Positions 57,117 to 57,252 of a stretch of DNA of 64,000 nucleotides are shown in pieces. Each line of letters starts with the position of its first letter. Position 1 is the stretch's first letter. Origin of the DNA: Nitrososphaeria archaeon (GTDB lineage Archaea > Thermoproteota > Nitrososphaeria > Nitrososphaerales > JACAEJ01); the NCBI GenBank assembly GCA_029775925.1, contig JARVKB010000004.1, forward strand, positions 62,001 through 126,000. The letters are read 5' to 3'. The notes under the pieces were generated by a model. It had not been told where the DNA came from and searched no databases. It worked only from the letters and a program-made list of their open reading frames with translations. Position numbers and translations under genes: made by a program.

Positions 57117-57252
57117 CGCCGGGAGTGGGATTTGAACCCACGAGGCCTAAATAGGCCACAGGCTACTTGTAATTACTCCAGGCTTAGGCTTTTTAAATCT
57201 GCCCCTTACCAGGCTAGGGAATCTTTGCCAAGGTCTCTTTAACCTTTCCGGC
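57117..57252 (-). tRNA. tRNA-Ser(GGA) with three inferred introns: 57224-57247 (24 nt, acceptor stem), 57184-57198 (15 nt, anticodon stem), 57165-57175 (11 nt, 37/38)
   Basis: Minus strand: GCCGG|aaaggttaaagagaccttggcaaa|GATTCCCTAGCCTGGTAAGGGGCAG|atttaaaaagcctaa|GCCTGGAG|taattacaagt|AGCCTGTGGCCTATTTAGGCCTCGTGGGTTCAAATCCCACTCCCGGCG. Exons join to 86 nt with acceptor GCCGGGA/TCCCGGC, D stem CCCT/AGGG, anticodon stem CAGGC/GCCTG, long variable arm, discriminator G. Confidence 0.88.

Follow-up and report, generated by a model that had tools for sequence, protein, structure and literature searches.

Introns in the acceptor stem of tRNAs have been reported at position 3/4 in the Thermoproteales (PMC4090602) and are named in a further study (PMC12397907), and tRNAs carrying three introns are known from Pyrobaculum and the Thermoproteales (PMC4090602, PMC8450103). 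Split tRNAs, which are trans-spliced, carry leader sequences that pair to hold the exons for BHB cleavage and ligation (PMC3218864). In the intron gain of the Caldiarchaeum tRNA-Thr(GGU), which involves a detached 5′ fragment, a repeated piece of the tRNA 5′ end lies near the new intron and synteny is broken at the tRNA gene (Sugahara 2012, PMC3293823).

The tRNA-Ser(GGA) gene described here lies in a 64,000-nt stretch of archaeal DNA (the window). It resembles the archaeal noncanonical BHB introns in having BHB-type introns away from position 37/38 and as many as three introns in one gene, and its lineage, like theirs, may have an endonuclease of two subunits. It is unlike the Thermoproteales 3/4 introns in that the acceptor-stem intron is at position 5/6, that the host belongs to Nitrososphaeria-like archaea and that the leader carries a copy of the acceptor strand. 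The likeness to split tRNAs is in a leader sequence that could hold the exons, but this is one contiguous gene, and the holding strand would be an acceptor copy paired with the tRNA body rather than a leader–trailer pairing. A repeated tRNA 5′-end piece beside an intron, with a synteny break at the gene, recalls the Caldiarchaeum tRNA-Thr(GGU), although the repeat here is 7 nt long, lies 13 nt away and is conserved across families. Acceptor-stem introns and three-intron tRNAs are already known, and the leader copy is the more novel part of this locus; no description of such a copy, or of its use as a clamp, was found in the open-licence literature.

Structure of the tRNA-Ser(GGA) gene

The gene belongs to a 1.4-Mb archaeal assembly (G000), whose named relatives include the Nitrososphaerales MAGs L089 and L097 and Ca. 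Methylarchaceae archaeon HK01M (L100). Its features, in window coordinates, are the following.

57117..57252, minus strand: tRNA-Ser(GGA) gene, with mature ends G1 at 57252 and G73 at 57117; 86 nt when spliced
57298..57303, minus strand: TATA-like box CTTTAA, 25 nt upstream of copy 1, read from aligned upstream regions
57266..57272, minus strand: leader copy (copy 1) GCCGGGG, a repeat of the acceptor 5′ strand separated from exon 1 by 13 nt
57253..57265, minus strand: spacer from the leader copy to the mature 5′ end
57248..57252, minus strand: exon 1, GCCGG, positions 1–5, the real acceptor 5′ strand (copy 2)
57224..57247, minus strand: intron 1, 24 nt, position 5/6 in the acceptor stem (BHB shuffle test and homologues)
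57199..57223, minus strand: exon 2, positions 6–29, GATTCCCTAGCCTGGTAAGGGGCAG (homologue comparison)
57184..57198, minus strand: intron 2, 15 nt, position 29/30 (BHB shuffle test and homologues)
57176..57183, minus strand: exon 3, GCCTGGAG, with the anticodon GGA at 57179–57177
57165..57175, minus strand: intron 3, 11 nt, position 37/38 (exact absence in intron-free homologues)
57117..57164, minus strand: exon 4, AGCCTGTGGCCTATTTAGGCCTCGTGGGTTCAAATCCCACTCCCGGCG (homologue comparison)

Exon 4 comprises position 38, the 3′ strand of the anticodon stem, the long variable arm, the T arm, the acceptor 3′ strand TCCCGGC and G73. Exon 1 together with G6 and A7 forms seven of seven Watson–Crick pairs with TCCCGGC (57124–57118), the same arrangement as in the G013 gene that lacks intron 1, and the end of the spacer supplies the nucleotides of the outer BHB helix (with positions 7–9) and T(−1) of the central helix. 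The four exons are contiguous within 136 nt at one locus, and the gene is therefore not a split tRNA; they also stand in normal order with the 3′ half not placed upstream, and the gene is likewise not a permuted tRNA. The sequence, coordinates, intron sizes and junctions given in a first-pass annotation were all recovered, with the gene on the minus strand, and its expectation that a gene finder could easily overlook this tRNA was borne out, as ARAGORN and Rfam (at the gathering threshold) both report no tRNA in the window. The leader copy lies beyond the coordinates of that annotation and had been missed.

To score the BHB motifs, the letters of each intron were shuffled. Intron 1 has an outer helix AAT:ATT, a central helix (H) TGCC:GGCA and the bulges GG^A and AA^G, and none of 20,000 shuffles equalled its score (H 4/4, inner helix 6, outer helix 3). 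Intron 2 scored H 4/4, inner helix 2 and outer helix 1 (p = 0.00025); its H, GGGC:GCCT, is built from the D-stem and residues 26–27 and is kept across families by matching changes (GGGC:GCCT, GGGC:GCTC, GGGC:GCCC and GCGC:GCGT). The BHB motifs originally proposed for these two introns thus stand, as does the caution expressed about the helix of intron 3, which has no canonical BHB of its own (H 2/4, p = 0.52 in the shuffle test). Relatives in family f1 retain the same relaxed 3′ sequence at intron 3, with ACAA two nt before the 3′ cut, and more distant homologues have a proper BHB at this site, e.g. CTGG:CTAG in L029. When all one- and two-intron ways of leaving a 5-bp anticodon stem and a 7-nt loop were scored, the solution CAGGC-CTGGAGA, which gives Ser(GGA), tied for the best H total and had the longest outer helix (6 bp).

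Homologous genes locate each junction. The Ser(GGA) genes of the sister genome G013 (L012) and of G027 (L016) contain introns 2 and 3 and lack intron 1, and in both the exact predicted exon sequence GCCGGGATTCCC is contiguous. Junctions 2 and 3 are fixed by fully intron-free Ser(GGA) genes, e.g. L083 and L091, in which the anticodon arm reads GCAGGCCTGGAGAGCCTG. Exact excision of introns 1–3 restores the cloverleaf of the intron-free orthologues (G013/G027; L083, L091 and others), and all three junctions were accepted because these homologues show each one. Together with the BHB tests, the intron-free relatives support the proposed three introns, the GGA isoacceptor and the acceptor-stem position.

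Inspection of related genomes further revealed that G013 and G027 lack intron 1, whereas G045, G053 and G060, which belong to the same family as G000, and G006 and G021 of family f7 have it. Three f14 genomes also contain a 5/6 intron, in either Ser(GCU) or Ser(GGA). Introns at 5/6 were found in 9 of the 401 genomes of the class among acceptors beginning GCCGG. The description of the acceptor-stem intron as rare is therefore fair for position 5/6 in this collection, but introns at 3/4 had already been reported in the Thermoproteales (PMC4090602).

It is extremely improbable that the gene is a decayed, unexpressed copy with Ser(GGA) supplied otherwise. Intron 3 without a BHB would suit a decayed gene, and another gene could be missing from an assembly that is 96% complete. 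However, a search for an intact Ser(GGA) elsewhere in G000 found none (the other Ser genes are GCU, CGA and UGA), the exons are intact and conserved in relatives, the orthologues of G045, G053 and G060 contain the same three introns, and UCU and UCC, the codons assigned to this tRNA alone, are in use (81 of 4183 codons sampled).

G000 contains two PF01974 genes of 186 and 178 aa. Read by eye, one chain has Tyr, His and Lys at the expected catalytic places and the other is without the His. One EndA chain thus looks alpha-like and catalytic and the other beta-like and structural, which would fit a two-subunit enzyme; such an endonuclease is reported for thaumarchaea and goes with noncanonical introns (PMC3218864).

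A copy of the acceptor strand in the leader

The leader copy GCCGGGG pairs at seven of seven positions, one of them G–U, with the acceptor 3′ strand (57124–57118). Every f1 or f14 gene that has a 5/6 intron also has a copy, and the Ser(GGA) orthologues without intron 1 have none. Ser(UGA) genes with an 8/9 intron also carry a leader copy in G000, G013, G045, G053 and G060, and it is absent from the Ser(UGA) genes of G037 and G027, which are without this intron. Of the ~40 remaining tRNA genes of G000, many of which have introns at other positions, none has a copy. The TATA-like box of the GGA genes keeps its spacing relative to the leader copy rather than to the mature end; a similar box is found 22–23 nt from the mature 5′ end of the intron-free orthologues.

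The Ser(UGA) gene of G000 (L072; G000:C33:26905-27008, minus strand) is interrupted at 8/9 by a 23-nt intron (GCCGGGAT^...^GGCAG). This intron has a full BHB, the gene has a leader copy of its own, and the Rfam match starts only at position 6.

Pattern searches were carried out across 401 genomes of the class and 401 of the phylum for acceptors beginning GCCGG with fixed D-arm letters, and a copy was counted when at least 6 of 7 positions paired with the 3′ acceptor strand. They yielded 40 Ser genes with a 5′-end intron (9 at 5/6, 29 at 8/9 and 2 at 7/8), which share ancestry and represent far fewer independent events. The leader copy is present in 32 of these genes, the two copies of family f7 being degenerate (GCTAGGG, with one mismatch and equally complementary to the D arm). 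Among the Ser(UGA) genes of the class, the copy occurs in 20 of 26 with an 8/9 intron and in 3 of 30 without introns (Fisher p = 3.5e-7, from a table that pools families and, like all the statistics except the f47 test, was computed after the pattern had been noticed); the shuffled background rate is 10%, the same as the rate in intron-free Ser(UGA) genes. Family f47, which belongs to another class, was examined last as a test, and all three of its genes have an exact 7/7 copy, 14–15 nt upstream, with an outer helix of 3 bp.

The eight genes without a full copy are six of family f2, which keep only GCCGG, and two of family f3, which have no copy. In all eight the outer BHB helix has 5 Watson–Crick bp, compared with 1–4 in the copy-bearing genes, a trade-off that rests on these two families.

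The f3 genes (L021 and L028) are Ser(GCU) genes with a 7/8 intron, whose 5-bp outer helix is formed from the leader and the D stem. L335 (G090, family f11), a Ser(UGA) gene without introns, nevertheless has a full copy in its leader, which may be left over from the loss of an intron.

Copy 2 is fully Watson–Crick with the 3′ strand throughout, whereas copy 1 is sometimes wobble-paired or mismatched, and copy 2 is therefore taken as the mature strand. In the opposite assignment, copy 1 would be the real mature 5′ end and the stretch from position 7/8 of copy 1 to position 7 of copy 2 would be an outer intron (a twintron), with the self-complementary CCGG as its central helix. The CCGG stretches of the two copies can pair with each other in the correct register, and the mature tRNA would then be of the same type; copy 1 also stays paired when the once-spliced RNA is folded, and family f3 has a true single 7/8 intron. 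However, copy 1 would give mismatched acceptors in f2 (GCCGGTC), in the UGA gene of g3 (U7–U66), in f7 (A4–C69) and in the UGA gene of G028 (A7–C66), where copy 2 is perfect. In addition, the spacers contain no conserved inner helix, and the G013 gene without the intron corresponds to copy 2 (A7) and not to copy 1 (G7). The outer-intron assignment was rejected because of the copy 1 mismatches, and we regard it as very unlikely.

Proposed role of the leader copy

Our best explanation, which we consider probable as a whole, combines the sequence comparisons with folding calculations. The gene at 57252–57117 would be the working tRNA-Ser(GGA) of the genome, its three introns would be removed by the enzymes outlined below, and the leader copy would act as a clamp that tethers the tiny first exon during splicing. 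Transcription may start a short distance 5′ of the leader copy. Before splicing, the BHB of intron 1 would occupy T(−1), G1, C2 and C3, and the real acceptor strand would therefore be unable to pair with the 3′ strand; for introns at 8/9, G1–G6 would be paired inside the BHB, leaving the 3′ acceptor strand free. The leader copy could then pair with the free 3′ strand as a surrogate acceptor stem, tethering the leader and the 5-nt exon 1 (5–8 nt across genes) to the tRNA body during splicing. An (alpha-beta)2 endonuclease would cut both splice sites, and an RtcB-type ligase would join exon 1 to exon 2. The restored GCCGGGA, being fully Watson–Crick, would displace the copy, after which RNase P would remove the leader by cutting at 57252. 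Introns 2 and 3 would be excised by the same enzymes, intron 3 via its relaxed motif.

In the predicted minimum-energy structure of the precursor, the pairing of copy 1 with the 3′ strand is found together with the BHB of intron 1. The calculated ensemble fraction of this pairing is ~0.96 here and ≥ 0.99 in most other precursors, while in the f2 precursors before splicing the calculation pairs copy 2 and not copy 1. After removal of intron 1, the secondary-structure calculation still favours copy 1, and a strand exchange aided by tertiary folding or RNase P must therefore be assumed. The longer outer helix of the copy-less genes fits what a tether requires. The same copy in most related Ser genes that are cut near the 5′ end suggests an unreported means of keeping a very short first exon in position while it is spliced.

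The copy might instead be a functionless scar of the origin of 5′-end introns, for example by a 7/8 insertion that duplicated the acceptor strand, an account that we find unlikely but weigh seriously. In favour of a scar, position 7 is the last one copied, and the spacing of the TATA-like box to the copy resembles its spacing to the mature end of intron-free genes, as though the former 5′ end had stayed behind upstream; the intron-free L335 still carries the copy, and the upstream region of the locus is rearranged relative to G013 and G027. Yet a scar would be expected to decay independently of nt 66, whereas position 7 of the copy usually matches this nucleotide (G with C66, A with U66). The copy has also been retained in at least seven families and two classes, with both 5/6 and 8/9 introns, while its flanks and the spacer (3–20 nt) vary, and the longer outer helix of the copy-less genes likewise argues against a scar. 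A clamp remains the explanation that we prefer.

History of the locus and wider meaning

G000 and G013 are collinear at ~80–91% identity from window position 42618 to 57223, and the match stops at the first base after intron 1. A DUF77-like gene adjoins the tRNA on the upstream side in G013 and G027. In G000 it lies 11.4 kb from the tRNA, behind a cobalamin uptake/cobaltochelatase-like segment (window 57224–64000 and G000:C23:126001-130682), and in G053 it lies 6.4 kb away, behind glycosyltransferase-like genes. These differences in placement identify the 5′ side of the tRNA as a site of rearrangement. No recombinase or integrase was noticed among the ORFs of at least 80 aa read by eye in the 11.4-kb segment, and no left-over 5′ tRNA fragment was found beside the DUF77-like gene in G000 or G053. 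The locus thus differs from the Caldiarchaeum tRNA-Thr(GGU) and from the mobile-element-driven tRNA disruption of the Sugahara model.

On the shared descent of the 5/6 intron in f1, f7 and f14, a PyrG tree gave a backbone without resolution. A tree of a 451-aa protein (49862–51217) placed G027 inside f1 beside genus g1, and the pattern of intron 1 therefore requires two or more losses, or one loss followed by a regain; intron 1 was either lost in G013 and G027 or regained in G000.

Several observations concern other genes. Read by eye, window positions 48575–55330 appear to hold corrinoid methyltransferase, corrinoid protein and RamA-like genes, as in methylotrophic archaea. The Ser(GCU) gene of G045 (L179; G045:C59:23118 region) has a D-loop insertion of ~60 nt between repeated CCTAG motifs, with a TATA-like stretch, whereas the Ser(GCU) genes of G053 and G060 are uninterrupted. 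In G000, L219 (G000:C17:182520-182780) is a second tRNA copy with the same 3′ part as the Phe-like L253, but another sequence has taken the place of its acceptor 5′ strand, as happens at integration sites. L222 (G000:C26:1820-2080) is a tRNA with the acceptor GGGGTCG/CGACCCC, ~100 nt over normal length and with box C/D-like letters, perhaps a tRNA-Trp with a guide-RNA intron. Two Gly(CCC) genes near contig ends (L239 and L240; G000:C8:2150-2390 and C10:54350-54590) have identical 100-nt upstream flanks, possibly as a result of assembly duplication.

A 5′ intron leaves an exon of 5–8 nt that is unable to reach its pairing partner while the splicing motif is formed, and the leader copy would be a concrete answer to how such an exon stays placed. 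The locus allows sister genomes with and without the intron and the copy to be compared, and an acceptor strand repeated a few nt apart provides a search rule for tRNAs overlooked by gene finders. For the phylum at large, we lean slightly towards the view that in its archaea a surrogate acceptor strand encoded in the leader serves as an intramolecular clamp, which would make introns in the first nine nt tolerable, with a longer outer BHB helix as the alternative solution.
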